Below, one piece after another: positions 3,114-23,035 of a stretch of DNA of 23,035 nucleotides (position 1 is its first letter; each line of letters opens with the position of its first letter). The notes below the pieces were generated by a model. That model saw only the letters and a program-made list of their open reading frames with translations. It was not told the origin of the DNA and made no database searches. The translations under genes and the position numbers were made by a program. This stretch comes from a virus: the IMG/VR virus record IMGVR_UViG_3300030060_002875, positions 1 through 23,035 of that record, one strand, 5' to 3'.

Positions 3114-3235
3114 CTGAATTAATAGAAAACCTACATGAAGCACTACAACTTGCAGAGACTAGAGGTCAGCGTAAGATTCTACTCCGCGCTATCGAGTTGG
3201 CTGAAAGACTCAAGGCTACCATCAAAGTCGAATGA
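3110..3235 (+). CDS. Small helical hypothetical protein (41 aa)
   Basis: An ATG overlaps the stop of the nuclease gene as ATGA and opens a 41-residue frame beginning MTELIENLHEALQL and ending in TIKVE. The sequence is leucine- and glutamate-rich and would form one or two amphipathic helices. No family is recognised. The tight coupling to the upstream gene is the main support for it being expressed. Its last 57 bases overlap, on the opposite strand, the end of the convergent leftward gene, which is unusual for two real genes; one of the two may be spurious. Confidence 0.5.
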   Translation: MTELIENLHEALQLAETRGQRKILLRAIELAERLKATIKVE

Positions 3236-3460: not shown

Positions 3461-4699
3461 TTAGAAGTTAAGGCTATCGTAAACATCGTCAACCAAGGGT
3501 CTAAACCATCCTCCGGTATTCTCGACTTGCTCCGTAGTTACGAGGAACTCTAGCACTTGGTCTAGTTCCTGTTTCGTAACCTCAGATACAAATTTCAGCC
3601 ATAACTTTTTGTAGCGAACACCTGAGTCCGAGTCAATAATATATCTTAAAATGTGTTTGGTGATTTCACCAATCGGATTACGTCCAACAGTATTGAACGC
3701 TTCATGCATCTTGTGTTCCGTTATAGTCAACAACTTGAATGCACGTTTGATCTGCGACAATGAAATCTCCTTCGTCGTGCCATCAGCGAAATGCATCAAC
3801 ATGGCAGTCTTCAACAGATGAACATTCTTCCTGCCATAATAATTATCGAGTCGAGGGTCTTTGTTCACTCGCTTTCTATCCAGTTCTCCTGACTCATAAA
3901 GATGTTTGTGCCACGCAGACGCTTCGGCATCCAACTTACATTCACCTGAGATTTTGCGCATTGCGTACAGCCAACTGACAATGTCGTTACGGCAACGTAT
4001 CTGCTCGTCTGATAGACCGGGAAACTGACGAAAGAATCTAGGCGCATGACCGAATACAATGATGACGCGAGAAGTAAAACCCTGCGATATAATCCTATCA
4101 CTAAACGCTTCGCGAATGAATGAAGGTGTTGTTCCTCCCAGCATTGTTACGCAGATGTTCGTGATGTCGTCTGAGCCTTGGTGTTTACTCTTGTAATGGT
4201 AACTGCGTGAATCATAAAACTGGTTCAGCATATTCACCATGTCCTCGGAGTTCTTGCGAAAGAGTACACCGAGTTCTTCAATCATAAAGCAGATGGAATG
4301 ATGCGACTTATTCTTGAGCGCACTTCCACCAAGACGAGTATCGGGTATAGTAAACGTCCGCATACAATCATCACGCATATAACGAAGCAACGATTCTTGC
4401 GTAGTTGTGTCTGCACCGTAAGGATACATCGGAACCATCTCGTTTTTCTCAACGTCAAATTCCATGAGCTTCTCGCTCTTTATGATGTCGGTAACTTGCG
4501 AGATCACGCGAGATTTACCAGCAGCAGGAGGCCCGACAAGCAACGTAAAGATGTTCGGATATATGGACATTGAGTCTGGATACAACCAGACTCGCCTCTG
4601 TAACGCAGCACTAATCAAACTGTAGAAACTCCAATCAATAAATAGATCGGGTGATTCCAAATCTTTGAGATAGTGCCGCCACTTCTCAAGATTAGTCAT
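3461..4699 (-). CDS. P-loop ATPase, DUF3987-like putative replicative helicase
   Basis: This is a 412-residue protein counted from the ATG at 4699; an in-frame TTG one codon earlier is less likely. Numbering with that extra codon, Walker A is GPPAAGKS (57-64), Walker B is the ICFMIEE strand (137-143), a sensor-like strand CVTMLGGTTPS lies at about 184-194, and a candidate arginine finger is R212. The order resembles DUF3987-type phage helicase/primase-associated ATPases. The C-terminal 100 residues look like a winged-helix segment (YIIDSDSGVRYKKLWLKFVSEVTKQELDQVLEFL). It lies directly after the DNA polymerase and a tiny gene, with an 8-base overlap (ATGACTAA), which supports a replication-fork role. 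No primase domain is visible, and the helicase activity is inferred. Confidence 0.65.
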   Translation of the reverse strand: MTNLEKWRHYLKDLESPDLFIDWSFYSLISAALQRRVWLYPDSMSIYPNIFTLLVGPPAAGKSRVISQVTDIIKSEKLMEFDVEKNEMVPMYPYGADTTTQESLLRYMRDDCMRTFTIPDTRLGGSALKNKSHHSICFMIEELGVLFRKNSEDMVNMLNQFYDSRSYHYKSKHQGSDDITNICVTMLGGTTPSFIREAFSDRIISQGFTSRVIIVFGHAPRFFRQFPGLSDEQIRCRNDIVSWLYAMRKISGECKLDAEASAWHKHLYESGELDRKRVNKDPRLDNYYGRKNVHLLKTAMLMHFADGTTKEISLSQIKRAFKLLTITEHKMHEAFNTVGRNPIGEITKHILRYIIDSDSGVRYKKLWLKFVSEVTKQELDQVLEFLVTTEQVENTGGWFRPLVDDVYDSLNF

Positions 4700-4877
4700 C
4701 AAGTGTTTCTATCAGTTTTGCGATTATTGAATACTGCTCAAAGGTTAAAGCAGGGAATGGTTTTCCATCTATGGTGATAAACAAGACAGGCTGAGTTTCA
4801 TCTCCATCGAAGAAGTTATCGAATGTGACACTTATATTTGTGTCATCCACGTTGTAGCTTATTGTTGGTTTAGACAT
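4692..4877 (-). CDS. Small hypothetical protein between polymerase and ATPase (61 aa)
   Basis: A 61-residue acidic protein that looks mostly beta-stranded (TISYNVDDTNISVTFDNFF...PVLFITIDG) and ends in a short helix. Its start overlaps the polymerase stop by 8 bases (ATGTCTAA) and its stop overlaps the ATPase start by 8 bases. This symmetrical coupling suggests it is made in step with both. Binding to the polymerase or helicase is conceivable but unsupported. No family is recognised. Confidence 0.7.
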   Translation of the reverse strand: MSKPTISYNVDDTNISVTFDNFFDGDETQPVLFITIDGKPFPALTFEQYSIIAKLIETLDD

Positions 4878-7236
4878 CTATCATTTCTTTCCAGTTATCC
4901 CCGATCATTGCTTCCGATCTCATGGAGAATCGTTCGCCACGGGGAGAAATCATTTCACGATTCAGGTGCTTCATTGCTTCTTGGGCAACGAATTCTGAAT
5001 GCTCAGGTGCGCATTGAAGCAGCACACTATCATGGTTGTTCTGGAGTACGTCAACTCCTAACTCTTGCAAATCTTGCCGGTTCTGTAGCTCGACAAATGC
5101 GAGGTTCGTGATACATCCGACAGTCGATTGAGGCACGAATGCATACGCTTCCTTGTACATTGATTCATCAATGATGCCGGTGAAGTATCGCGGATACCCA
5201 AACAGGTTCTTGAGTGTTCGTGTTTCCTTTAGTCGCTCGACAGTCTCGTTGTGCCATTGGTTTATCTCAGGGAACAACTTGTGATAAGTGCTGAGAAATC
5301 GTTTAGCCTCTTTCGATTCAAGGGCGATTGCACCTTGAGACTTTTGCAAGATATTTGTACGGAAGGTTGGTGCTTTCATTCCGTAGTTCGATGCGTGACA
5401 AACCATCTTGGCCATGAAGTAGTAGCGTTTATCGGCAGTCCAATTGTCGCTATCTTTGATTACACTATTGAGTTCATCCCAACCTTTGATGTCCTTGAGT
5501 TCATGGATGGGGGCTTCGCAGAATTCGTCGATGCTTCTACCAAGTTCAGCAGACCAGACATCAGGAAACAGACGCATAGCAACAAACACATGAGACTTGA
5601 TGCCTTCAAGGAATAGTGTGCGGAAGTTGCCTTGTGTACATAGGTAGCCAACGATCATTGCCTCTGCTCCTGCTTGGTCAGCTTGCACAAGAACCTTACC
5701 TTCATCAGCAATGAACAGATGTCGCAACTTCTTTGGTATGTTCTGGATGTTCGTACCCCAGCGACCAAGTAGCTTGCGACTTGCCAATCTGAATGTAGAT
5801 GTACCAGCCAAGTTGTACGAGGTCGTGATTCGATCAACCATCGGTTTGTTGTGCAGACCGTCGTAAGGATTGTACTTTAGTTGGCCTGATTCTTTGGCGA
5901 TTGATCGGTACTTGAGAATTATTGAGATTGCTGGAAGATCATACTTGAGTCGATGTTGAAGCAGGGTCTTCTCGTTTGTTAAATCCTTCGCTGGTTTCTT
6001 GAGCTTCATGCGGTCATACAAATAGACAGACACTTGCTTCGGACTGTTTGGATTTAGATCGTGACCGACAAGAAGACTCAGCATTCTGCGAAGTTGATTC
6101 TTGTGTCGCTCGTTGCGCATCAGAATCTTCTTCTTCTCTGCTGTATTGATGCGGAGTCCCTGACACATTGCAGTAAGATACGGCACTACCATTGAGTTAG
6201 CTTGTTCAATGGATTTAGTTGCGCCCATCGTAACTGCGAGTTCGTCAATGGATGGCTTGATCAACGCCATCGTGAGTACGTCCTTGACGTTGTAATGGTA
6301 GAGTTGATCAAACTGTTCTGCGTTCTGTGGATTGTAGCAACCTTCGTTCTTGTGATAAGGTTGATCTGTGTAAAGTGATATGCAATGTCCGAGAGACTTC
6401 TCTATTTCAGGGAACAGCCTATGATGCGCCAGCATTGTATCATAAACTTTGCGAGGCGCAGGAATACCATATCGGTATGCGACAACGAACAAATCAAAGA
6501 GTGCGTTGTGTATGACTACTGTGTTGTCTCTGAATGCAACGGCAAGTGCGCGTAAAATCTGATGAGTCTCGTCGTAATGGTAGTAGTTTATTCGCAGCAT
6601 TGGTACGCAGTAGCCTTTGCCGCCAAACGAGAACCCGAAACAAGTCATCTCAAGGCTAGGATTTGTCTCGATGTCAAAGAACATATCCTTGCCTTTAGTG
6701 TTTGTTAGTAAATCTATAACTTCGGATGCTTTGGGATAGATGTCACTCTCACCTTCGATGGGATTAGGTGGAGTCTTGAGATAACCGGCAGCTTTTGATA
6801 CATCCCGTTGCATCCAGTATCGCCAGTTGGATCGTTTGGTTTTGCCGTGTCTCTCGGTTTCGTCGTAATCGTACTCGGTTTCGTGTGCGAGCGGATTGAA
6901 GTATGCCTTGCGATCAATGGCATTTTGCGGAGCGAACGTAGCAATGTAGGTGCGTCCATGTACCATCCAAGGACAGCCACGCTGACCACCGAGTTTTGAG
7001 TTCTTGAAAGTTTTAAGAGCCTTCTCGCCCAACAACAAAATTACTTTTGTGTCGGGGAGAAAGCCTTCGCCCAAGGTATTGAGCAATCTGATGTCGCAAG
7101 ATTGTCTCGGAATACCAAGGGCGTTTTGGAATAGATGACCAGCGTAGCCTGAGATTAGACTACCCTTGTCGAATCTACTTGGACTTTCGAGAATTACCGT
7201 TAGACCGCTGTACTTTAGACTTGGTTTGTGTCTCAC
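4870..7236 (-). CDS. Family A DNA polymerase with 3'-5' exonuclease and a UDG-like N-terminal domain
   Basis: A replicative polymerase of 788 residues from a GTG. Residues 10-115 resemble the family 4 uracil-DNA glycosylase fold (VILESPSRFDKG..., then ILLLGEKAL, then RGCPW, then TFAPQNAI), but the usual GEAPG and HPS catalytic motifs read LESPS and APQ. The proofreading exonuclease has DIE (D188, E190), N244-x3-D248 and Y315-x3-D319. The polymerase core has TSTFRL (479-484), motif A around D520, motif B with K610, H614 and Y618-G619, and motif C as HDS (735-737). H614 occupies the place usually held by Phe or Tyr, and Ser replaces Glu in the common HDE. There is no 5'-3' exonuclease. The GTG lies 62 bases inside the preceding gene; a later start would cut into the first beta strand of the UDG-like domain. 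The replicative assignment is strong; UDG activity is doubtful. Confidence 0.92.
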   Translation of the reverse strand: MRHKPSLKYSGLTVILESPSRFDKGSLISGYAGHLFQNALGIPRQSCDIRLLNTLGEGFLPDTKVILLLGEKALKTFKNSKLGGQRGCPWMVHGRTYIATFAPQNAIDRKAYFNPLAHETEYDYDETERHGKTKRSNWRYWMQRDVSKAAGYLKTPPNPIEGESDIYPKASEVIDLLTNTKGKDMFFDIETNPSLEMTCFGFSFGGKGYCVPMLRINYYHYDETHQILRALAVAFRDNTVVIHNALFDLFVVAYRYGIPAPRKVYDTMLAHHRLFPEIEKSLGHCISLYTDQPYHKNEGCYNPQNAEQFDQLYHYNVKDVLTMALIKPSIDELAVTMGATKSIEQANSMVVPYLTAMCQGLRINTAEKKKILMRNERHKNQLRRMLSLLVGHDLNPNSPKQVSVYLYDRMKLKKPAKDLTNEKTLLQHRLKYDLPAISIILKYRSIAKESGQLKYNPYDGLHNKPMVDRITTSYNLAGTSTFRLASRKLLGRWGTNIQNIPKKLRHLFIADEGKVLVQADQAGAEAMIVGYLCTQGNFRTLFLEGIKSHVFVAMRLFPDVWSAELGRSIDEFCEAPIHELKDIKGWDELNSVIKDSDNWTADKRYYFMAKMVCHASNYGMKAPTFRTNILQKSQGAIALESKEAKRFLSTYHKLFPEINQWHNETVERLKETRTLKNLFGYPRYFTGIIDESMYKEAYAFVPQSTVGCITNLAFVELQNRQDLQELGVDVLQNNHDSVLLQCAPEHSEFVAQEAMKHLNREMISPRGERFSMRSEAMIGDNWKEMIDV

Positions 7237-7447
7237 GCGCCTTGAGTGCTTCTTGTTTGAGCTTGTCCTTGATTGAATCTTGTTTGATGTAATCTTGTAG
7301 CATTAGGATTGCATCAGAGATTCCCGATAGATAACCGTCTGCTAAAGCCTCGGCTTGCATCTCAGTCGTCTTGATTCGTAACCGTTCCAACGCTTGTGCA
7401 TTGTCCTTGGTACGAATGTCATCAATTATGGTCGTTAATTCTTTCAC
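7175..7447 (-). CDS. Small helical hypothetical protein (90 aa)
   Basis: A 90-residue, largely helical protein with a central YLSGISDAILMLQDYI helix and a strongly basic tail (KARETQTKSKVQRSNGNSRKSK), which could touch nucleic acid. The start overlaps the previous gene by 26 bases, and its basic tail is encoded across the polymerase start (62-base overlap). The low-complexity lysine/serine tail may simply reflect constraint from the overlapping polymerase codons. No family is recognised. Confidence 0.65.
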   Translation of the reverse strand: MKELTTIIDDIRTKDNAQALERLRIKTTEMQAEALADGYLSGISDAILMLQDYIKQDSIKDKLKQEALKARETQTKSKVQRSNGNSRKSK

Positions 7448-7655
7448 AGTATTTTCTTTTAACGTAGTCAGGTGTTCCGTATCTTTTTCTTACTTCAGCA
7501 GTTCGCCGCTTCTTGTGCGGAAAATCTACTTTGTAATCCATTGTGCGACTTTCGTGATGGCCAACTTCGCTGGGCTTGAGTCCATGTCGTCGCGCAAATT
7601 TCTTAAATTTTCTGTCGATGTCTTCCTTGTTTATTTCTAGGTCGTTTATTTTCAT
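7422..7655 (-). CDS. Small basic hypothetical protein (77 aa)
   Basis: A 77-residue, lysine- and arginine-rich protein (EDIDRKFKKFARRHGLKPSEVG..., then KKRRTAEVRKRYG), suggesting nucleic acid binding. No family is recognised. The ATG lies only two bases beyond the T tract of an intrinsic terminator, so any message for it must come from transcription that reads through that hairpin, and no Shine-Dalgarno sequence is available there. This makes it a candidate for attenuation control. Confidence 0.6.
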   Translation of the reverse strand: MKINDLEINKEDIDRKFKKFARRHGLKPSEVGHHESRTMDYKVDFPHKKRRTAEVRKRYGTPDYVKRKYCERINDHN

Positions 7656-7657
7656 GG

Positions 7658-7685
7658 AAAAAAGGGGGAGGTTTTACCCTCCCCC
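7658..7685 (-). terminator. Intrinsic terminator after the DUF669 gene
   Basis: On the leftward strand an 8-bp perfect stem, GGGGGAGG with CCTCCCCC, closes a six-base loop and is followed directly by six T residues. It sits 6 bases past the stop of the SSB-like gene and just before the next ATG, so it probably lowers rather than abolishes expression of the polymerase genes beyond. Confidence 0.88.
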
Positions 7686-7691
7686 ATGTGG

Positions 7692-8195
7692 TTACGCAAG
7701 ATCGTGTTCGGGTGCTTTACTGATCAGTTCCCCAACTGAATACGAGTTGAAGGTGATAGGGTCGCCGGTAGACGGATCTACCATTGCCTCACCTTCCGCA
7801 TTCTTCCTTACAACCTTCTCGGTCTTGATGGTTGCATAGGCAGCCTTGCCCTTATAAATAGAACCATCCGGCTCGACAGTACCCCAAGGGTCGCTCTCGT
7901 CGGAACAATTCAACTCGAAAGGCAAATCGAGAACACGATGAGTACGCTTGACGCGCAATGCCATCTTCTCGATAAACACGAGGTACTCACGGAATTGCAA
8001 ACCAGCAATCCGTACATTTCCCAAGTCTGGATCTTCGATAGACTCAGGTGCAACGATTTCCCAAGTCAAGACAACCATCGGGTTGCCACTCTGTGACTGA
8101 CGGGTTTCGGTATCGGCTACACGAATAGTGTAGTTGTTTGAAGGCAGAAACGGACGAGCGTTCTCCTTTACATCATTTAGGTTAATAGTAGGCAT
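7692..8195 (-). CDS. DUF669-family protein, putative single-strand DNA-binding protein
   Basis: This 167-residue protein has the layout of DUF669 phage proteins: a short N-terminal segment ending in LPSNNYTIRVADTETRQSQSGNPMVVLTWEIV, an OB-like beta region, then VRIAGLQFREYLVF and HRVLDLPF, and a C-terminal strand block (YATIKTEKV...FNSYSV) with a short tail. DUF669 genes commonly accompany Sak4/RecA-like ATPases and are thought to act as SSB in phage replication and annealing. Here the Sak4-like gene lies just upstream. A purine-rich AGGA lies 12 bases before the ATG, longer than ideal. A strong terminator follows, so this gene can be expressed at a higher level than those downstream. Confidence 0.75.
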   Translation of the reverse strand: MPTINLNDVKENARPFLPSNNYTIRVADTETRQSQSGNPMVVLTWEIVAPESIEDPDLGNVRIAGLQFREYLVFIEKMALRVKRTHRVLDLPFELNCSDESDPWGTVEPDGSIYKGKAAYATIKTEKVVRKNAEGEAMVDPSTGDPITFNSYSVGELISKAPEHDLA

Positions 8196-8329
8196 TTTTA
8201 CCAGTTATCCTCACTTCGTGTGAGAAAGTATCGACGGGCGATCAATGCAGGGACATACTGGCCAACTGAGGAAACCAGTAACCGATAATCCTGTCTGCAT
8301 CTTAATAGCAGTATGTACCCGTCTGAAAT
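8196..8329. repeat. 134-base intergenic gap with nested inverted repeats
   Basis: This is the widest gap in the replication genes of the leftward block. ACATACTG at 8253-8260 pairs perfectly with CAGTATGT at 8309-8316, and an inner TACTGG (8255-8260) can instead pair with CCAGTA at 8275-8280. These mutually exclusive stems in the leader of the SSB-like gene could be regulatory. I see no convincing -35/-10 pair. Confidence 0.35.
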
Positions 8330-8629
8330 TCATCCCGCAAAAAGATTCTTTTTGTCGGCTATACTTGTTCTTGTCCGAAAGATTCCATCGTACTTTGGAA
8401 ATACTTTGTGAAACTTACGGGCATAGAACGCTTTGTAGTTATTGTTTAGTTTGAAATCTGTATCACTTGTTTCGATGAGAGTCTCCCATCTGATACGTTC
8501 AGCAACCAACGCAACACTAAAGTTATCATATCCTTTATTAATTGCCTCAAACGTAAACCTCTTGAACAACTCCCACACATAAGGGTTGTCTGCATGAAAC
8601 TTGTCGAACTTTTCTTGTAAGTCAGGCAT
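8330..8629 (-). CDS. Conserved phage protein of unknown function (99 aa)
   Basis: The ATG at 8629 overlaps the ATPase stop by 8 bases (ATGCCTGA) and gives MPDLQEKFDKFHADNPYVWELF. The pattern FHADNPYVWELFKRFTFEA..., then ERIRWET, then FKLNNNYKAFYARKF, ending GIFRTR, is familiar from many phage genomes as an uncharacterised conserved protein, often near replication genes. It is helical and rich in aromatic and basic residues. No catalytic motif is evident. Placement directly after the Sak4-like gene suggests a replication or recombination accessory role, which is inference only. Confidence 0.75.
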   Translation of the reverse strand: MPDLQEKFDKFHADNPYVWELFKRFTFEAINKGYDNFSVALVAERIRWETLIETSDTDFKLNNNYKAFYARKFHKVFPKYDGIFRTRTSIADKKNLFAG

Positions 8630-9266
8630 AATATTCGTTGCAGGACTTGATGACTTCGTTGAGATCGTTGGGTATGTAGAGATCATCAAACATACCAAGA
8701 GGAGTCTTCGCAGATGTCACTCCATCAGAGTTTGTCTGGAAACAATAGTCGATGGAGTTCTCTCCCTTACGAACTTCTGTGAATAGAACCATCAGCAGTT
8801 CCTTCTCGATGCAACCTTCGTGCTGCTTGCCTTGCACCTTGATGCGTCGAGTATTGTACTCACCGCCAGTTGGCTGAGTGACGCGCACGATCTCGTCGAT
8901 TGCTGTGAATATGAAGATGGCTTTTTCATTTTTCACTTTGTCGAGTAGGTCACGAATCTGTTTGTTGTAGTACGACCAGACATCGTAACCCTTGTACATC
9001 TTACCGGCGTAACTAGATAGTTGTTCGCAGTATTTGGTGAAGGATTCAAAGACAACAATATCTGAGTTCTTGATTGCCTTTTCGATGGCAGGATTAACGT
9101 CAGGTATCTTGTCTACCGATATGATGTCGAACTTCTTTGCTTCCTTGAACGGGAAGCCTTTGCGTTCTAGGTCGATGATGGTTGTCTTGTCTGCTGGTAG
9201 ATTGCGCAGGGATGTTGATTTGCCCGTGCCACTACCGCCAACTATTCCGATGATAGGTTTGTTCAT
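8622..9266 (-). CDS. RecA-fold P-loop ATPase, Sak4-like recombination protein
   Basis: In this 214-residue protein Walker A is GGSGTGKS (10-17), a second strand TTIIDLERKG follows at about 28-37, and the Walker B position is DIVVFES (69-75), with Glu rather than Asp. A later strand AIFIFTAIDE fits the core of the RecA-like AAA_24/Sak4 group. Sak4 proteins are short phage recombinases that promote single-strand annealing or exchange with an SSB partner; the DUF669 gene nearby fits this pairing. It overlaps the upstream gene by ATGA. No zinc-binding or helicase extensions are visible. Classification as Sak4 rather than another small phage ATPase is likely but not proven. Confidence 0.8.
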   Translation of the reverse strand: MNKPIIGIVGGSGTGKSTSLRNLPADKTTIIDLERKGFPFKEAKKFDIISVDKIPDVNPAIEKAIKNSDIVVFESFTKYCEQLSSYAGKMYKGYDVWSYYNKQIRDLLDKVKNEKAIFIFTAIDEIVRVTQPTGGEYNTRRIKVQGKQHEGCIEKELLMVLFTEVRKGENSIDYCFQTNSDGVTSAKTPLGMFDDLYIPNDLNEVIKSCNEYYA

Positions 9267-9655
9267 TGTCTAATTAAGATTTCGATGTTGCGAGGTTGAG
9301 GTTGTTCCGTTGTTGGCCAAGTGTTTTCGATTAGTTGTTGGCCGATCAATCCATAGTTCACTATGTCTTGAAAAGTATCAGCAAGTGATTCGTTGTTCGG
9401 TTCGCGGTTGTTCTCAAGTAGATTCTTGAGTCTGAAGATTTTATCGACGAGCCGAGTCTTCAATCCAAGTAGTCCCTCGGATGAAATGTTCAATGGCCCG
9501 TAGTCCAACTGTTTCGCGTCAAGCAACTCTAGGCAATCAAGTGCATTGTGCATTGCTTGAAAACCAGCAGCAGTATTTAGTGTTAGTTCGTATTTAATTA
9601 CCGGAGGATTGTTGTCTCCATCTATCATTTTACTTTGTACTTTGATTTTATTCAT
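9263..9655 (-). CDS. DUF1599 (nucleotide modification associated domain 1) protein
   Basis: In this 130-residue protein the segment 45-110 matches the DUF1599 pattern: LDYGPLNISSEGLLGLKTRLVDK (D71, K72), R75 in IFRLKNLL, then N88-E89-S-x-x-D93-x3-D97 and NYGLIGQQLI. DUF1599 occurs in phages and is associated by genome context with pathways that make or handle modified nucleotides; its chemistry is not established. It lies between the Cas4-like nuclease (8-base overlap) and the Sak4-like ATPase (ATGA). No kinase or thymidylate-synthase-like partner is seen in this window, so a link to base modification here is weak. Confidence 0.72.
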   Translation of the reverse strand: MNKIKVQSKMIDGDNNPPVIKYELTLNTAAGFQAMHNALDCLELLDAKQLDYGPLNISSEGLLGLKTRLVDKIFRLKNLLENNREPNNESLADTFQDIVNYGLIGQQLIENTWPTTEQPQPRNIEILIRQ

Positions 9656-10553
9656 TGAAGTTTAGTGGGTTATATTTTTTAGTGTAAAAGTCGTTCTCGA
9701 TTACTGCTTCGCCAAAGTCTCCTGCATTGCAGATTCTAGTGAACTTGCACATTCCGAATTTGGTTTCGCAGCAGTTAAAGTTTGGCAAGAAGTATTGTTT
9801 ATCTTCCTTGATGTTCTTGGTAAGTAGCTCGACGAAGTTGACGAGAGTCTCAGTAAGATGCTGCTCAAAGTATGCGAGCTTCTGATTTGAGTAATCTAGG
9901 ATTGCGCTTCGCTGAAACTTGTTGCGACCAGAGCGAGACAAGAAGATGCCGTTGATGAGTGCTTGATAGTTTCTGTCAGGGAACAGCTTGCGCATCACCA
10001 ATGTATACAACATAAGTTGCGTAGACATTTCGTATGAAGCCAAGTAACGGTCAACTGTTGTGACTGCCGTTGACTTGTGATCGCATATAATGTTCTGACC
10101 AAAGTATGTACCAATGAAGTCAATTGTTCCGCAAAGAATGATGTCGATGAACCCGTTTGTGTAAAAGGGATAAGCAAACTTCATTTCAAGAAGCGGTTTA
10201 CCTTCGTGCTTCTCTACCTTGAGTCCGTCTACGTCTGAGTAGTGATCAAAGTATTGTGTGATACAGTTGGCGAGATGCCCTTGAGTACGCCAGTCATTGA
10301 CGGGAACGTGAATGTCTGGATTAGAAAAATGTGTTAACGCTTCATTCATAGACTGAACCTTATCACCAGTTGCGTAATAAGATTCTAGTGCCTTGTGGTA
10401 TGCCGTGCCGTATTCCATCTTGTGATTCATGTAACTACTACGCAAACCTCTTACAGTTGTGTAATAGAACTTGAGGGAACAGGCAGATTCTTTGTAGGCA
10501 GATGCGTCTATGCGAAGAATGTAGCGGTCTTCAGCTTTCTCTAATTTAATCAA
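9648..10553 (-). CDS. PD-(D/E)XK nuclease, Cas4/RecB-like with C-terminal Cys cluster
   Basis: This 301-residue protein begins at a TTG that is supported by a good upstream AGAGGAAAG. It carries the RecB-nuclease motifs in order: H53 (GTAYHKALE), D145 (GTIDFIG), D158-x-K160 (ICDHKST) and Q179-x3-Y183 (QLMLY). C25 near the N-terminus and C261, C262, C269 and C275 near the C-terminus match the four-cysteine iron-sulfur arrangement of Cas4/AddB-type nucleases (C25 plus three of the last four). The likely role is resecting or trimming DNA ends in recombination alongside the Sak4-like and SSB-like proteins. No Cas1/Cas2 or CRISPR array is present, so this is not a CRISPR adaptation gene here. Confidence 0.88.
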   Translation of the reverse strand: MIKLEKAEDRYILRIDASAYKESACSLKFYYTTVRGLRSSYMNHKMEYGTAYHKALESYYATGDKVQSMNEALTHFSNPDIHVPVNDWRTQGHLANCITQYFDHYSDVDGLKVEKHEGKPLLEMKFAYPFYTNGFIDIILCGTIDFIGTYFGQNIICDHKSTAVTTVDRYLASYEMSTQLMLYTLVMRKLFPDRNYQALINGIFLSRSGRNKFQRSAILDYSNQKLAYFEQHLTETLVNFVELLTKNIKEDKQYFLPNFNCCETKFGMCKFTRICNAGDFGEAVIENDFYTKKYNPLNFNE

Positions 10554-10793: not shown

Positions 10794-11302
10794 TTCATTA
10801 CGCGAACAGAAGTGTCGGTAATATCTACTTCTGAATCTTCATTGACTAGATTGTATACGAATTCACGATCAGCTTCGGAGACAGAGACGTTACGCTCAAA
10901 GAGTTCTGTGTCCTTGGCAGTCTTGTACCAAGTTTCTAGTTCGTTCTTCCACGCAATAGAATCATTAAACTCGTAGTCTATTGCTTTAGACTTTAGTGCG
11001 TTTTGTATCGTACCTTTGAAGTAGATTATGATGCCGTCATCAGTCTTGCGTATGGCGACTTTGTTTCGGAGTAGCGAATATTTTGTTTCGTCAAAGTTGT
11101 CTAGGATGAACTTGAATCCATCGTTGAATTTGACGTACAAAGTATTTGCTGTGTATCCGGTTTGCTGGGCGTTGACGTAAACGTCTTGTCCAGTTTCGAT
11201 TAACCTATCGAGTATTGGCTGTACTTGCTTGGCCGCATTAGGACTGTAAGTAGAGCGTTTCGGTTTTGGTTTATGTTCTATTGTAATGTTTTCGATTTGC
11301 AT
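10790..11302 (-). CDS. Hypothetical protein (170 aa)
   Basis: This is a 170-residue protein with a basic N-terminus (EHKPKPKRSTY), a central mixed region (DVYVNAQQTGYTANTLYVKFNDGFKFILDNFDE, then KVAIRKTDDGIIIYFKG) that looks beta-rich, and an acidic C-terminus. The basic lead and strand pattern could suit nucleic acid binding, but no family is recognised. It overlaps its upstream partner by 25 bases, so the two are probably co-translated. Both lie directly downstream of the sigma-54-type promoter at 11708-11723. Confidence 0.7.
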   Translation of the reverse strand: MQIENITIEHKPKPKRSTYSPNAAKQVQPILDRLIETGQDVYVNAQQTGYTANTLYVKFNDGFKFILDNFDETKYSLLRNKVAIRKTDDGIIIYFKGTIQNALKSKAIDYEFNDSIAWKNELETWYKTAKDTELFERNVSVSEADREFVYNLVNEDSEVDITDTSVRVMK

Positions 11303-11679
11303 TGATCCATGTATTTAGCAGCAGTTTCTTTATTACCCTTTGCTAGTTCTGCTTGTGCCAGCATAAAGAGTTTCTTGGCTGAAAGTTCTTTGAGTGAAGG
11401 AGTCCACTTTGCAGCTTCATCCTGCGAGAAAAGAATTCCATCCGGTTTCTCACGATATAATTCATCCTTGAATCTCTCCAAGTCTGATGTCGGTAGGTTC
11501 TTTGGTAAACCATTCTTAACCTTGGCACGAATGCGTAACTGAGCTTGTTGATTTATTAGGGCGATTGTTGTTTTCTCACCGTAAGCCTCAACAACTTCAT
11601 CAATAGACTCAAAGACCGGAGTATAAAACCCGAAACCCTTGAAATCCCCGTCGATAAACTGTTCTTTTTTATAGGTCAT
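11278..11679 (-). CDS. Hypothetical protein, first gene after the sigma-54-like promoter (133 aa)
   Basis: The ATG at 11679 is chosen over a TTG two codons earlier. The 133-residue product begins MTYKKEQFIDGDFKGFGFYTP and is helical further on (FESIDEVVEAYGEKTTIALINQQAQLRIRAKVKNGLP). Its C-terminal ELSAKKLFMLAQAELAKGNKETAAKYMDQC resembles a short TPR-like helical pair. No named family is recognised. Transcription from the predicted -24/-12 promoter would start about 18 bases ahead of the ATG, giving a short leader without an evident Shine-Dalgarno sequence. Regulation by the neighbouring activator is inferred. Confidence 0.72.
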   Translation of the reverse strand: MTYKKEQFIDGDFKGFGFYTPVFESIDEVVEAYGEKTTIALINQQAQLRIRAKVKNGLPKNLPTSDLERFKDELYREKPDGILFSQDEAAKWTPSLKELSAKKLFMLAQAELAKGNKETAAKYMDQCKSKTLQ

Positions 11680-11707
11680 TTTCAAAAAATATGACAGTTA
11701 ATATATA

Positions 11708-11723
11708 AGCAACCTTCGTGCCA
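11708..11723 (-). promoter_or_regulatory. Sigma-54 (RpoN) -24/-12 promoter, full consensus match
   Basis: On the leftward strand the sequence reads TGGCACG-AAGG-TTGCT, matching TGGCACGNNNNTTGCW at all twelve informative positions with exact spacing. It lies in the 66-base gap between the sigma-54-type activator gene and the next gene. Transcription would start near 11697. Confidence 0.75.
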
Positions 11724-11745: not shown

Positions 11746-12453
11746 TTAATAGATGATTAATTTACCTAGTGTCTTGTAACGTGCAAGTATAGATTGTAGT
11801 TCTCTATAGTTGCCGGTGAGTTTGGTTTGATCTAGGATTTGAAGCATCAATCCTTCGGGGTCTTCGACTTCTTGTTTCTTGAGGTAGAGAGTTATGTCGT
11901 CTGTTCTATCTCGGAGTGGTGATGTCTTGATGATGAAGGTTGATATGCGGTGATAGAGATCGAGTCTGAAATTTCCTGCCTCGACTTCTTTGCGTAAGTC
12001 CTTGTTGGTTGAGAACACGAAGCGACAAGTTGCGTTGTGTTCCTCGGCTTCGCCTATGCGACTGTACTTCTTGTGTTGAATGAAGCGCAGTAGCTTGGGC
12101 TGTAGATGTAGGGGAAGTTCTCCGATCTCATCTAGGAATAACGTGCCTTTGTGTGCTCGCTGAACGAAACCAGTTGTGTCTCTGGTCGCTCCCGTGAATG
12201 AGCCTTTGAGATGTCCGTAAAGAAGCGATTCAAACAAGTCTTCTTGGAGTGTAGTTACGTTTACAGGAACGAAGTTATTTTGTATTTTGGCGTTCGATGC
12301 TGCTTGCCTGTCTCCATGTAAGATTTCTGCGATAGTCTCCTTACCCGTGCCAGACTCCCCCATCACTAGGACGGGGGAATCGTGGCTGGACAGAATGTGC
12401 GCATGGTAGATTTGCTCTAGCATGAACTTGTCTTCTGTGATTAGTTCTTCCAT
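11746..12453 (-). CDS. Stand-alone sigma-54 activator AAA+ domain protein
   Basis: This 235-residue protein is essentially only the central domain of a bacterial enhancer-binding protein, the ATPase that remodels sigma-54 RNA polymerase closed complexes. Walker A is GESGTGKE (32-39); the sigma-54-contact loop is GSFTGA (84-89, usually GAFTGA); Walker B is TLFLDE (104-109); Arg fingers lie in FRLDLYHR (R163, R169); PLRDR is at 179-183; and the sensor II GNYREL is at 214-219. It has no receiver, GAF or other sensor domain at the N-terminus and no Fis-type helix-turn-helix at the C-terminus, so it probably acts from solution or with a partner. Its start overlaps the upstream small gene by 13 bases. 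A full-match sigma-54 promoter lies just beyond its stop. Confidence 0.9.
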   Translation of the reverse strand: MEELITEDKFMLEQIYHAHILSSHDSPVLVMGESGTGKETIAEILHGDRQAASNAKIQNNFVPVNVTTLQEDLFESLLYGHLKGSFTGATRDTTGFVQRAHKGTLFLDEIGELPLHLQPKLLRFIQHKKYSRIGEAEEHNATCRFVFSTNKDLRKEVEAGNFRLDLYHRISTFIIKTSPLRDRTDDITLYLKKQEVEDPEGLMLQILDQTKLTGNYRELQSILARYKTLGKLIIY

Positions 12454-18031: not shown

Positions 18032-18091
18032 CCAGAAGTCGTGCCGCTACTGGACTATAACCCTCTCTGAAAAAATGACCCAAAAAACACT

Positions 18092-18244
18092 ATGAGACAA
18101 AACGTACTTTATCTTATAAAATTATGGCACGAACTCTGCTTCAACCGCCCCATGTGTGAACGATCAATCGAAATCTGCAAATCAACGCCTCTAATTCAGT
18201 ACGCCCTCTTCTTCAACCCGCACCTATTCGATGTCCGAAACTAA
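18092..18244 (+). CDS. Possible small protein ahead of the 970-residue gene (50 aa)
   Basis: This open frame encodes MRQNVLYLIKLWHELCFNRP and continues to QYALFFNPHLFDVRN, with aromatic and cysteine residues. It overlaps the next gene by 14 bases, which would explain the missing ribosome-binding site there. A six-codon mini-frame from 18075 ends in the same ATGA. However, the sigma-54-like promoter at 18125-18140 lies inside it, and transcripts from that promoter would not include its start. It may be real, or merely open leader sequence. Confidence 0.4.
   Translation: MRQNVLYLIKLWHELCFNRPMCERSIEICKSTPLIQYALFFNPHLFDVRN
18125..18140 (+). promoter_or_regulatory. Sigma-54 (RpoN)-like -24/-12 promoter facing late genes
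   Basis: TGGCACG-AACT-CTGCT matches TGGCACGNNNNTTGCW at 11 of 12 informative positions with exact spacing, and the GG and GC dinucleotides are intact. Transcription would start near 18151, about 80 bases before the ATG of the 970-residue gene. Confidence 0.55.
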
Positions 18245-21143
18245 CATCGTCAAAGAATTCGCTGATGGGCCAACTGCTGATACCGTTGACGCATTCGGCA
18301 AAGTAGCTGAAGGCCCACTCATAAAGTACAATCCCGGTGGTTTCGCCCAATTCCGGGCTGAGACAACTGGATTACCACCTGCTCGCGCTCAATTCGGCGA
18401 CGAAGAATTTTGGGGTCAACTCGTCACACCCACAACCACAAAACTAGACACAGAGCCAAAAGGCCCAACAGGCCCAACAGATTTAGATGGCACAGGACTA
18501 TCGAATGACCAAATAGACGCAATCGTAAAAGAAAGCGACGATGCACACAAAGAACTTCAAGATTGGTATCGCAGATCAAGTAGTGATGACCTAGTAGATT
18601 TTGATAAGTACCGACTCGACATACCAGACCCAAAAATCAACTGGGACACCAGCGATATTGGCTACACCGGCTACGATTACAGAAAAGACCCCGATTTCTT
18701 AACTGGTGACCTAATCAGCGCAGACCGTAATTTCACACCATATAGTCCACCAACCGGGCCAACAGAATTACCGAAGACTCCAACATACATTCCGCCTCCG
18801 CCAAAAGACGGCGATAAAGACGGCCCACTCGTTAGATTTTCACCAAGGCCAGCAGAAGATAGAACTTTAACGGAAAAAGCAGAAGACGATAAAATAGCTA
18901 GTGTAGGAATATTTAAACCTACACTAACAGAAAGAGCAGGACAATCTTTACAAGATATACTTTCTGTTGTAGAAAAACCAATAAAAGCAGTATTAGGTAA
19001 AACACGTTATGATGTAGAAGGCCCACACCCAAAAGGTTCTGACTACGATAATTTAGGTAAAGTATCACAGAATTTTACATTAAAATTAAAAGATTGGGCA
19101 AAAGGTTTAGATGATGAAAGTCTTAAATTATGGGAGACTAAAGGTATACCGTCAGAGGTAACAGGACGCGCTCCTGTTGGCCCGAAATACGGCAAGATGC
19201 TGGCTAACTTTGTTCGCATACTCAAGAACAAGGAAAACATACAGACACAAGAATACGGCAATCTTCAATTTCTTGCTGCATTGAACACGGCAGCCTTAAT
19301 CAGTCAGTATGGTGCAATAGGTGGTGCAATCCCCGTATTGCTAACTGTATCAGACGATTTAATGTCGGCACTTAATAATATGACTGCCAAGCGACCTGAG
19401 ATGGCAGGAAATCCAATTCAAGATTTTGTGCATGGCACAACATGGGTACTCGGCAAAACCCTACAGAAAACCTACAACAACACACTAGGCCAAGTTTTAC
19501 CCAAGATCAAAGATACACGGATAAAGGACAAGCTAGGTAACATCGACGAGTTTATGAAAGCCCCTCGTCGTCCTAATATGGGTACAAAGACCGTAATCTC
19601 AATGCCTGATCCCGATGGCACAATAACAATACCAGAACCCGAAACACCCACAAAACGCAAAGAAGTCGTAGCAGAAAAACCAGAACCTTTTGTAGCACCA
19701 GAACCAGAACCGCCAGTAACAGGAGAAACAATTCAAGTTAAACCCGAAGAACCAAACAATGTTGTAATTGATGATGGTGATACACCTGTCTCACAAAAAA
19801 CAAGCACACTACCAAAAGTCGAAACTTCTGAAGCACTTACAGTTATGCCAACAACTGACCCAACAATTGACCCAAACATTGAAACAATAACAGATGGGGT
19901 AAAAGGCGTAATAATTCGAGATGTAGAAGATTTTGAAAAAGGTTTAACTGAAATAGATACATCAAACATAGAAACGGCAGAACTAGATTTAGCTGAATTA
20001 CCAGTAACAAAAACACTCAAAGGTGAAGAAGGCCAAACAGTCAAACCGACAAAACCTGAAAAGCAAGAAGAACAAAAAGGTACAACAATAGACAAAGGCA
20101 CAATAGAAGGACTTGGTAAAATAATAAAACGCGAACGAGATCGCGAAGCAACAGCCGCCGAACGGCAACAAGTATTAAAAGATTTAGGTGCATCAGTATT
20201 TCAGACAGGTTTTCCTGATATGTCTCAAGATGATTTAGGTAAATTCAGAACTGAGAATAAAAATTGGATACAACACGGAACAAGAAACTACGAAGTTCCT
20301 AGCGGAGAAGAAATACAAATTCAAATTCAACTGTCTGATATACAAGACCAATTAGCTAATGCAGATTTTTATAATTTAAGTTATGAAGATATTCAAAATC
20401 TTGAACAGAAACAAATGGATTTGAATCTAGAATTAACTAATATAGCACCAACAGAAATTCCATCGCCACTTAAATTCTATCTTGATGGATATTCTACAGA
20501 AGATTCTTTTATATTATTTAATGCTTATCTAAAAAAGGCAAACCAAAGTCTAGATCAAAAATTTAATGACAGACAGTTTAAGCACGAACAAAATATGCAA
20601 GATTTTCAAATTAAACTTGCTGATAAATTTATAGAAAATATAATAAAAGAATCTGAAGAAGGTAGATTAAGTAGCGAGAAAGCTGAACAAGAATTTGAAG
20701 AATGGAAAAAATTTGATAAAGAGCAAGAGGAACGCAGAAAAGAATTAGAAAAACAAGAGCAAGAAAGAGCAGAAAAAATTCTAACCGCAGTTAAAGGTTA
20801 TCTAAAAACTGACCGAGATAGACTTGTTAAATGGGGCTTAATGACGCAAGAGGAAGCAGACGCACAAGTAGAATTTGCTGACAAGATTGCCAAGACAGAA
20901 GGCGGTCTACAAATTTTACATAAAGGTGACGATGGTAAGGTCGTCCCGCAAAAAGATAAAGAAGGTAAGATTAAAGGCTACGCATACATCAGCAAAGACG
21001 ATGCAGAATTTTTAGAAAAATATAAAGACGGCGCACTAGAATACGGGCCTGACAAAACAGCCGAAGGTTCTGGCCCCGAGCGAGTACCAACAAGAAGCGG
21101 AATTGAATATGAAGGTGTATTTTATCCGAACCCTGATCCATGA
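18231..21143 (+). CDS. Large multi-segment phage protein, probable virion component (970 aa)
   Basis: No family is recognised for this 970-residue protein. Residues 1-230 are Gly/Pro/Asp-rich and probably disordered (PTGPTDLDGTG; PPPPKDGDKDGP). Residues about 285-450 are folded and helical, with a hydrophobic stretch near 342-380 (LAALNTAALISQYGAIGGAIPVLLTV). Residues about 470-640 are Pro/Glu/Thr/Val-rich linker, and about 790-880 are a highly charged coiled coil (EFEEWKKFDKEQEERRKELE). The C-terminal 90 residues look folded again. Base use changes along the gene: about 18860-19140 and 20200-20830 are clearly AT-rich, while 19141-19610 resembles neighbouring genes, suggesting a mosaic. The ATG follows a predicted sigma-54 promoter. 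A structural or injected protein is inferred. Confidence 0.7.
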   Translation: MSETNIVKEFADGPTADTVDAFGKVAEGPLIKYNPGGFAQFRAETTGLPPARAQFGDEEFWGQLVTPTTTKLDTEPKGPTGPTDLDGTGLSNDQIDAIVKESDDAHKELQDWYRRSSSDDLVDFDKYRLDIPDPKINWDTSDIGYTGYDYRKDPDFLTGDLISADRNFTPYSPPTGPTELPKTPTYIPPPPKDGDKDGPLVRFSPRPAEDRTLTEKAEDDKIASVGIFKPTLTERAGQSLQDILSVVEKPIKAVLGKTRYDVEGPHPKGSDYDNLGKVSQNFTLKLKDWAKGLDDESLKLWETKGIPSEVTGRAPVGPKYGKMLANFVRILKNKENIQTQEYGNLQFLAALNTAALISQYGAIGGAIPVLLTVSDDLMSALNNMTAKRPEMAGNPIQDFVHGTTWVLGKTLQKTYNNTLGQVLPKIKDTRIKDKLGNIDEFMKAPRRPNMGTKTVISMPDPDGTITIPEPETPTKRKEVVAEKPEPFVAPEPEPPVTGETIQVKPEEPNNVVIDDGDTPVSQKTSTLPKVETSEALTVMPTTDPTIDPNIETITDGVKGVIIRDVEDFEKGLTEIDTSNIETAELDLAELPVTKTLKGEEGQTVKPTKPEKQEEQKGTTIDKGTIEGLGKIIKRERDREATAAERQQVLKDLGASVFQTGFPDMSQDDLGKFRTENKNWIQHGTRNYEVPSGEEIQIQIQLSDIQDQLANADFYNLSYEDIQNLEQKQMDLNLELTNIAPTEIPSPLKFYLDGYSTEDSFILFNAYLKKANQSLDQKFNDRQFKHEQNMQDFQIKLADKFIENIIKESEEGRLSSEKAEQEFEEWKKFDKEQEERRKELEKQEQERAEKILTAVKGYLKTDRDRLVKWGLMTQEEADAQVEFADKIAKTEGGLQILHKGDDGKVVPQKDKEGKIKGYAYISKDDAEFLEKYKDGALEYGPDKTAEGSGPERVPTRSGIEYEGVFYPNPDP

Positions 21144-21711: not shown

Positions 21712-22067
21712 TGGAACTATACAATTATAAAGCAGAAGTTACCAGAGTTGTTGACGGTGATACTGTTGACGCTTTTATTGATCTTGGTTTTGATATGCAT
21801 TCAAAGCAGCGTGTACGTCTTTACGGTATTAACGCACCGGAGACACGGACTCGCGACTTGATCGAGAAGAAGCACGGCAAAGCTGCGACGAGACGTTTGG
21901 TTGAGATGCTTGAAGAAAACAAAAACAAGTGCATTATAAAAACGTCACTCGACAAAAAAGGTAAATACGGTCGTGTGTTAGGCACATTATTTATTGACGA
22001 CAAAAACCTAAACGAGACTCTGGTAGAAGAAGGTTACGCAGAAACCTACCATGGAGAAAAGCGGTAA
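21711..22067 (+). CDS. Staphylococcal-nuclease-like (SNase/TNase) endonuclease
   Basis: This 118-residue protein has the SNase core: VVDGDT (D15, D17, T18), RVRLYGINAPE (R36, N41, E44) and KYGR (R88), then NLNETLVEEGYAETYHG. D15 and D17 would bind the catalytic calcium, with R36, E44 and R88 as catalytic residues; N41 stands where the type enzyme has a calcium-binding Asp. No signal peptide is present, so it acts in the infected cell. It lies between the terminase genes and overlaps TerL by 17 bases, suggesting a part in trimming or degrading DNA around packaging. Cutting host DNA is an alternative. Confidence 0.88.
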   Translation: MELYNYKAEVTRVVDGDTVDAFIDLGFDMHSKQRVRLYGINAPETRTRDLIEKKHGKAATRRLVEMLEENKNKCIIKTSLDKKGKYGRVLGTLFIDDKNLNETLVEEGYAETYHGEKR

Positions 22068-23035
22068 CATACAATTCAAAGACCCTTACGAGATGTTGAC
22101 CGTTATTGACGACGACATCTTGGAGGGACGCATTTCTCTACACAAATGGCAGCGTGAAATCCTAGAGGATTACGGCAAGCCATCAAATGCCAGTAAACCA
22201 TTCAAGGCCGCAGTAAGAGCGGCGAATGGTTCTGGCAAAGATCAATTTGTTATAGCCCCTTGCGCCTTATGGACTTGCATGGCATCAGCTAATGCAGTCT
22301 CGATAGTTACGACCGCATCCGGTAATCAGCTAGATCGCCAAACAGACAAATACATCAAACAGCTAATGAACACCATTAACAAGATGTTTGGTACACAAGT
22401 CTGGAAGATGAACTATCGTCATTACACCAACCTACTAAATGGCTCAACAATCGAGTTATTCGTAACGGATGAGGCTGGTAGAGCAGAAGGTTGGCATCCG
22501 GTAGTTCCCGGCGGGGAACTAGCAATATTTGTTTCGGAAGCCAAGTCAGTACCCGACGAGATATTTACAGCGTTGGCTCGTTGCACAGGCTTCACCAAAC
22601 GAGTGGACGTATCTAGTCCCGGCCCACCTTCCGGTCACTTCTACAATATGTGTACTGGAGGTAACTGGAAGCAATATCATGTCACAGCTTTCGACTGCCC
22701 CCATCTATCAGAAGAATACATTGCTGAAATCAAAGACTCGTATGGAGAAACCTCCGCTCTATATAAGTCCATGATAATGGCTGAGTTTGGTGGTATGGAC
22801 GAGCAAGTCGTAATAAATCACCAGAAACTTGTAGACTTGGACAAGCACGAAATAGAACACCTAGAAGAAGAATACAACGTAGCTGGCCTAGATTTATCAG
22901 CAGGAGGTGACGAGCAGGTTCTAGTAATCCGAAATGGCAACAAAACGCTTGCAGTCGAAGCCTTTAACTTCCGCGACACAGTCGCCTTGATAAATCACCT
23001 AGAACACCTATTCAGAAAATACAAATTAGACCACG
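22051..23035 (+). CDS. terL: Terminase large subunit, 3' partial
   Basis: The window ends inside this gene; 328 codons are visible. Walker A is in RAANGSGKD (K63), preceded by the HKWQREIL helix (31-38) typical of terminases; the Walker B position is LAIFVSEA (E163); the coupling motif is VDVSSPGPPSG (186-195). The C-terminal nuclease begins at AGLDLSAGGDE with D281 as its first metal ligand. The enzyme powers DNA translocation into the prohead and cuts the concatemer. Its ATG lies 17 bases inside the nuclease gene. In place of the common DEA the Walker B has SEA. Confidence 0.92.
   Translation, partial: MEKSGNIQFKDPYEMLTVIDDDILEGRISLHKWQREILEDYGKPSNASKPFKAAVRAANGSGKDQFVIAPCALWTCMASANAVSIVTTASGNQLDRQTDKYIKQLMNTINKMFGTQVWKMNYRHYTNLLNGSTIELFVTDEAGRAEGWHPVVPGGELAIFVSEAKSVPDEIFTALARCTGFTKRVDVSSPGPPSGHFYNMCTGGNWKQYHVTAFDCPHLSEEYIAEIKDSYGETSALYKSMIMAEFGGMDEQVVINHQKLVDLDKHEIEHLEEEYNVAGLDLSAGGDEQVLVIRNGNKTLAVEAFNFRDTVALINHLEHLFRKYKLDH

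Follow-up and report, generated by a model that had tools for sequence, protein, structure and literature searches.

A sigma-54 activator reduced to its AAA+ domain and conserved -24/-12 sites suggest a sigma-54-dependent middle and late transcription programme in a phage lineage

The stretch of DNA analysed here, referred to as the window, comprises 23,035 bases and is classed as a virus record by IMG/VR (IMGVR_UViG_3300030060_002875). Its leftward genes include one for a sigma-54 activator, followed by a predicted -24/-12 sigma-54 promoter (site 1) and, on the same strand, by genes associated with replication and recombination:

11746..12453 (-), sigma-54 activator, 235 aa, a bare AAA+ domain (PF00158, 8.2e-54; PDB matches; fold search)
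12360-12337 (-), Walker A of the activator, GESGTGKE
12204-12187 (-), L1 loop of the activator, GSFTGA, the sigma-54 contact loop
12144-12127 (-), Walker B of the activator, TLFLDE
11814-11797 (-), GNYREL of the activator
11723-11708 (-), site 1, predicted -24/-12 sigma-54 promoter TGGCACGAAGGTTGCT, with GG at 11722-11721 and GC at 11710-11709
11278..11685 (-), first gene past site 1, 133 aa from the ATG at 11679; homologues follow site 1 in relatives
3461..10553 (-), proposed middle genes past site 1, same strand, presumably one transcription unit
9648-10553 (-), PD-(D/E)XK nuclease
8622-9266 (-), Sak4-like protein
7692-8195 (-), SSB-like protein (weak match)
4870-7236 (-), family A DNA polymerase
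3461-4702 (-), DUF3987 primase/helicase-like protein

The identity of the activator is evident from its sequence. The AAA+ core of a bEBP (Walker A, Walker B, R-finger region and sensor II) is present according to PF00158, alignment and fold; the PDB sequence matches are FleQ, NtrC-type activators and PspF, and the closest PDB folds to the predicted model (pLDDT 84.9) in the fold search are FleQ, FlrC, NtrC-type and PspF. Site 1 thus adjoins the gene of a protein with a sigma-54 activator domain, as an earlier note on this DNA had claimed. Walker A and B, G[SA][FY]TGA, FR.DL..R and GNYRE are kept across 20 aligned relatives, the contact loop G[SA][FY]TGA being found in all 20; the L1 loop is slightly more varied in divergent copies (GSYSGA in L204, GAFTGS in L203). 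A C-terminal HTH that binds enhancers is the rule in bEBPs, though with exceptions; Pfam recognised no HTH family and no sensor domain in the window activator (E up to 0.01), and the same holds for 10 divergent homologues at E up to 0.001. The E-sigma54 holoenzyme forms a closed complex that has to be remodelled by an AAA+ activator, the GAFTGA loop touching sigma-54, as described in PMC7175178; the phage protein would be expected to open such complexes in an ATP-dependent manner.

Site 1 matches the full -24/-12 search pattern TGGCACGNNNNTTGCW with no mismatch at 11708-11723 (-) and is the sole full match in the window, just as the earlier note had stated, and the estimate given there of fewer than 0.01 such sites by chance agrees with a mean of 0.0067 exact matches per dinucleotide-preserving shuffle of the window (600 shuffles). 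Its strand directs it toward the next genes, also as claimed, and the start predicted for it near 11697 is consistent with the rule that transcription begins at the motif centre plus 19 bp, as given in PMC4591121. From -24/-12 promoters, RpoN-dependent starts are expected 12 nt beyond the GC. The site had been described as lying in a 66-base gap of an otherwise overlapping operon; the gap from the activator to the next gene is indeed 66 bases when measured to the ATG at 11679 (60 bases to the mechanical TTG start at 11685), but the leftward genes have a second gap of 79 bases between 10790 and 10710.

Scored with a matrix made from 42 E. coli ChIP-seq motifs (PMC4591121, Table 1), site 1 reaches 17.8, compared with a median of 16.3 for the E. 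coli motifs themselves. A score of at least 17.8 was reached in 15 of the 600 window shuffles, so a chance origin of site 1, considered by itself, is only moderately improbable, and the evidence from this single site is suggestive rather than overwhelming. The two best scores in the window are 17.8 and 16.8, the third best is 12.2, and two sites as good as the first two occurred in none of the 600 shuffles.

The second of these sites (site 2) faces the rightward genes:

18052..18079 (+), conserved single-copy block GAACTATAACCNNCTCTGAAAWWATGAC (1 mismatch in the window), 45 nt upstream of site 2
18125-18140 (+), site 2, predicted -24/-12 sigma-54 promoter TGGCACGAACTCTGCT, score 16.8, predicted start near 18151
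18231..21143 (+), 970-aa ORF, first large rightward gene
22051..23035 (+), terminase large subunit, cut by the window end; about 33% identical to annotated phage terminases by tblastn

Site 2 lies 90 nt upstream of the 970-aa ORF, which opens the rightward packaging and structural operon. The terminase has in addition a weak match to Terminase_6N (E 0.025, below the family cut-off). A small conserved ORF of 30 aa (MCERSIEICKSTPLIQY..., 18152-18244, +) begins one base past the predicted start of the site-2 transcript and is therefore possibly leaderless.

Relatives were gathered by their DNA polymerases (77 loci, 56-99% identical). Of the 88 sources in this first set, 54 contained the activator, counting the window as well as contigs represented by more than one locus; a TGGCA..TGC[T] site follows it in all 54, with varying distance, flanks and spacer letters. 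A scan of viral contigs with an alignment of activators added the best 80 of 226 loci, so divergent activators were sampled rather than counted. The strict pattern used thereafter, TGGCA[CT][GA]N5TGC[TA], was fixed after the first relatives had been seen; as a safeguard, the E. coli matrix was derived solely from E. coli sites in the literature. Distinct activators of at least 200 aa with at least 100 nt of downstream sequence number 68; a strict site occurs within 250 nt past the stop codon in 61 of them (64 of 71 before the 200-aa filter), compared with 0 of 68 for the reversed pattern and 0 of 68 for the opposite strand. When the proteins were clustered at 55% identity, the site was found after every member of the two main clusters (31 and 25 proteins; 56 of 56) and after 5 of the 12 others. 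The 22 distinct site sequences following activators have GG-N10-GC with TGGCA..TGC around it, and their invariant and free positions follow the sigma-54 motif, the spacer letters being free. This freedom and the constancy in the two main clusters support the reading of site 1 as a sigma-54 promoter offered in the earlier note. The sites are placed before genes, oriented toward them and conserved, with the exceptions detailed below.

One relative, G007 (45,479 bases), has a direct end repeat of about 180 bases and is on that account probably a complete map. It holds exactly three strict sites: one past the activator, one ahead of the first large rightward gene and one (site 3) ahead of a 464-aa gene. 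Three strict sites at matching places were also found in G001, G005, G010, G015, G016, G017, G023 and G028, the DNA polymerases of relatives with this arrangement being about 60% identical. In G025 the contig stops short of site 3, and sites 1 and 2 are present; G012 has a strict site 1 with sites 2 and 3 one base off. A scan with an RpoN weight matrix had been proposed in the earlier note: the E. coli matrix puts sites 1-3 on top in 6 of 6 genomes (G007, G010, G016, G017, G023 and G028), these being all the genomes with three strict sites among the 13 records scanned in this way, and each of the six holds 3 strict sites versus 0.13-0.28 expected. A second matrix, applied to G016 and to divergent contigs among others, had approximate base frequencies; in G016 it ranks an extra intergenic site at 26853 (16.0) above the strict site 3 (14.8). 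Gene calls in the scripted counts were mechanical ORF choices.

The same arrangement extends to more distant members, 11 divergent records containing 37 strict sites versus 0 of the reversed pattern. G030:C112 is a phage contig that was assigned by binning to a bacterial MAG; its polymerase is 41% identical over residues 1-449. Three of its four strict sites correspond in position: one precedes the first rightward gene block, another the site-3 gene and the third a homologue (7e-11) of the window gene past site 1. The activator of this contig lies about 2 kb upstream of site 1, still in the same gene block, and the site stays with the following gene. A chance match to a short consensus, for which the shuffles that equal the score of site 1 could be cited, is contradicted by these comparative data: the window has a second site, the genome has a third, and divergent relatives have them in the same positions. 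Chance can be given almost no credence as an explanation.

The most divergent members have more than three strict sites (G030:C112, at 10385-10400 (-) among others, G031, G034, G038 and G039), some of the extra ones preceding genes upstream of the activator; a larger sigma-54 regulon may therefore exist there, possibly with feedback on the activator.

Site 3 is outside the window. In G007 it lies 86 nt upstream of the 464-aa gene, which itself comes after putative portal and scaffold genes. The gene is putatively that of the major capsid protein, judging by gene order (terminase, putative portal, putative scaffold) and conservation. Together with the divergent homologues tested, it had no match among PHROG, Pfam, PDB sequences or phage records, and its AlphaFold model is poor (mean pLDDT 43.7). 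A profile of the protein matches 8 of 8 divergent contigs, and a strict site stands 120-161 nt before the gene in six of these (G030C112, G031, G032, G034, G038 and G039) and is absent in G035 and G042.

The leader of the site-3 gene contains two tandem hairpins with the common loop AGGGCA, at 3222 and 3248 in reverse-complement coordinates of G007 and likewise in G001, G005, G010, G012, G015, G016, G017, G023, G028, G032 and G042. Their stems vary by clade (GCCA/TGGC, GGTA/TACC, TGTGA/TCACA, GCGA/TCGC, and others in G032). Two such hairpins were found in 12 of 20 contigs scanned, one in G038 and none in seven, and they were found nowhere else in these contigs. Consensus folding retained the second hairpin with one compensatory pair, and Rfam had no match at this leader. 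The hairpins are perhaps a translational operator.

Seven of the 68 activators have no strict site within 250 nt. In two of these (L170 and L198), a strict site is located about 575-580 nt past the stop codon, before the next large gene. Among 28 distinct contigs found via the site-3 gene (31 loci, 3 repeats), 13 have a strict site before that gene, six have TGGCAG[AG]..TGCT, which is one base off, and nine have none. In the clade of these nine contigs, searched together with a tenth member, G051, the activator was found in 7 of the 10 (G042-G046, G048 and G051), all seven with a strict site after it, and G042 retains a site 2 that is one base off (TGGCATCAAAGTTGCT). Activators are also present in the clade of G035, G036, G037 and G040, but its four records have only two strict sites in total, neither of them after the activator; in G035, the sequences before the site-3 gene (TGGCACGAATAAAGCT) and after the activator (TGGTCCTAGAAATGCT) both keep GG-N10-GC and are otherwise poor matches. 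A faecal phage record, MT121960, encodes a PF00158 protein and has no strict site. Most of the matches to the activator in the phage collection (66 records, 60 of them listed) seem to be bacterial contigs that were submitted as phage; several, such as contigs of Acinetobacter phage MD-2021a, carry ordinary bacterial regulators, glnG and prpR among them, and resemble host chromosome.

The activator of MT121960, standing without a strict site, might be taken to mean that the AAA+ protein works elsewhere, such as in replication, and that the motif is the site of another protein and resembles a -24/-12 element by coincidence. Against this, the sigma-54 contact loop is intact in every aligned activator, the invariant and free positions of the sites are those of the sigma-54 motif, and a matrix that knows only E. 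coli promoters ranks the sites first. The use of protein and motif for unrelated purposes is accordingly very improbable.

The sigma factor would have to come from outside the phage. No sigma-54 gene (PF04552) was found in 16 phage records, whereas control genomes were positive, and therefore the host must supply it. T7-type RNA polymerase (PF00940) was found in none of 11 records, a weak negative because no control genome gave a signal. A scan of genome contigs for hosts yielded a single MAG contig, G030:C112; the MAG that holds this relative has RpoN, and the contig may be misbinned. By megablast, the window has no cultured relative among 50,697 phage records, and polymerase matches in those records are 21.8-25.7% identical (25 of 121 matches listed).

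Very probably, middle and late transcription from the three phage promoters depends on host E-sigma54 that the phage bEBP unlocks. Host sigma-70 RNA polymerase would make the leftward genes, the activator among them; the accumulated activator would then remodel host RNA polymerase with host sigma-54 at sites 1, 2 and 3. Site 1 would start the genes of replication and recombination, site 2 the rightward packaging and structural operon, and site 3 the putative major capsid gene, the net effect being a switch from early to middle and late transcription. Because the E-sigma54 closed complex cannot melt DNA without an activator, the operons would be off until the activator accumulates, and since site 1 is downstream of the activator gene, site 1 itself would exert no feedback on the activator. 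The sequence shows what the activator is, where the sites lie and that they are conserved; that the activator drives these promoters, that the sites fire in vivo and that they do so in this temporal order is inferred.

In the leftward early region, terminator-like hairpins are present at 15835-15816, 17085-17069 and 17556-17535 (-). Between 11200 and 18400, 16 terminator-like sites were found versus 6.9 expected, and early sigma-70 promoters were not above chance (10 found versus 13.2 expected). The hairpins may mean that further early promoters or read-through are needed.

How the activator would reach the promoters is a separate question. No shared motif that could be a common enhancer was detected upstream of the strict sites when 9-mer sharing was compared with controls. 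In G007, G010, G017, G023, G028, G031 and G030C112, shared 9-mers were about as numerous as the control mean or fewer; they exceeded it in G016 (11 versus 4.4, AT-rich words), G039 (77 versus 51) and G034 (212 versus 35), with all three of the latter counts within the control maximum. Of 20 contigs scanned, 13 have the GAACTATAACCNNCTCTGAAAWWATGAC block, 39-80 nt ahead of site 2, and it was found nowhere else in those contigs; the distance is enhancer-like, and the block may be an enhancer, an early promoter or another element.

The want of a common enhancer and of a recognised DNA-binding domain with which to reach phage promoters would suit a different arrangement, in which the sites are real sigma-54 promoters driven by bEBPs of the host, so that the phage reads host physiology, and the phage AAA+ protein acts mainly on sigma-54 genes of the host. 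This is improbable in view of the co-occurrence of activator and sites throughout the family and the position of site 1 directly past the activator in the great majority of distinct activators; even in G030:C112, where site 1 stays with the following gene, the activator is in the same gene block.

If the phage activator does serve the phage promoters, action from solution is plausible because activators without an HTH exist (FlgR and CtcC). Because no sensor or DNA-binding domain was recognised, it may tentatively be proposed, at somewhat less than even chances, that the protein is an always-on enzyme that unlocks any E-sigma54 closed complex from solution. If so, three phage operons and the whole sigma-54 regulon of the host (nitrogen scavenging, transport, motility) would be switched on at infection, and induction of the host regulon could be a side effect or an asset. 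A takeover of transcription by this route would form a new class, found in many uncultured phages.

The phage switches known so far redirect the sigma-70 form of RNA polymerase, supply a sigma factor or a polymerase, or act by antitermination. The nearest bacterial parallels to the phage protein are FlgR and CtcC, bEBPs of the type placed in group 5 by PMC7175178 (for CtcC, PMC7482065): like it they are AAA+ sigma-54 activators without a DNA-binding domain, but as described there they have a response-regulator domain under a sensor kinase, whereas no sensor domain was recognised in the phage protein. PspF and its fragment PspF(1-275), placed in group 4 by PMC7175178, share with it the AAA+ fold and the lack of an N-terminal regulatory domain; native PspF has an HTH, and it is the truncated AAA+ form that the phage protein resembles. 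MotA/AsiA and gp55/gp33/gp45 of T4 and other phage activators of RNA polymerase likewise redirect the host enzyme to middle or late promoters, but the accounts of them drawn on here describe neither host sigma-54 nor a bEBP-type ATPase. The P7 protein of Xp10 also touches sigma-54 RNA polymerase; according to the account drawn on, it inhibits both forms of the host enzyme, whereas the activator described here would be expected to activate the sigma-54 form. Among the matches listed in a search of open-access titles and abstracts, a scope that mostly leaves out subscription papers and preprints, no phage sigma-54 regulon appeared, so a report elsewhere is possible. What appears to be new is the proposed joint use of a sigma-54 activator and such promoters as a phage middle/late switch, with an activator that is a bare AAA+ domain; each part is known.

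A lineage using the ATP-gated sigma-54 of its host would add to phage gene control the logic of a tight off state with enzymatic release. Such a programme would tie phage growth to hosts with RpoN and so predict possible hosts, and a natural bare-AAA+ activator would serve to ask whether bEBPs need enhancers at all.

Two further features of the relatives concern their genomes at large. The DNA polymerase gene is split in two in G030:C112 (L117, 10001-14711), with intervening ORFs, one of 484 aa, and two polymerase pieces are also found in G031, G032, G034, G035 and G039; introns, inteins or split genes are the options. G005 (IMGVR_UViG_3300030372_002239) has 65,640 bases compared with a genome map of about 45 kb, and its last 750 bases resemble its 19.5-20.3 kb region at 84-94% identity; the contig may therefore join two related strains.
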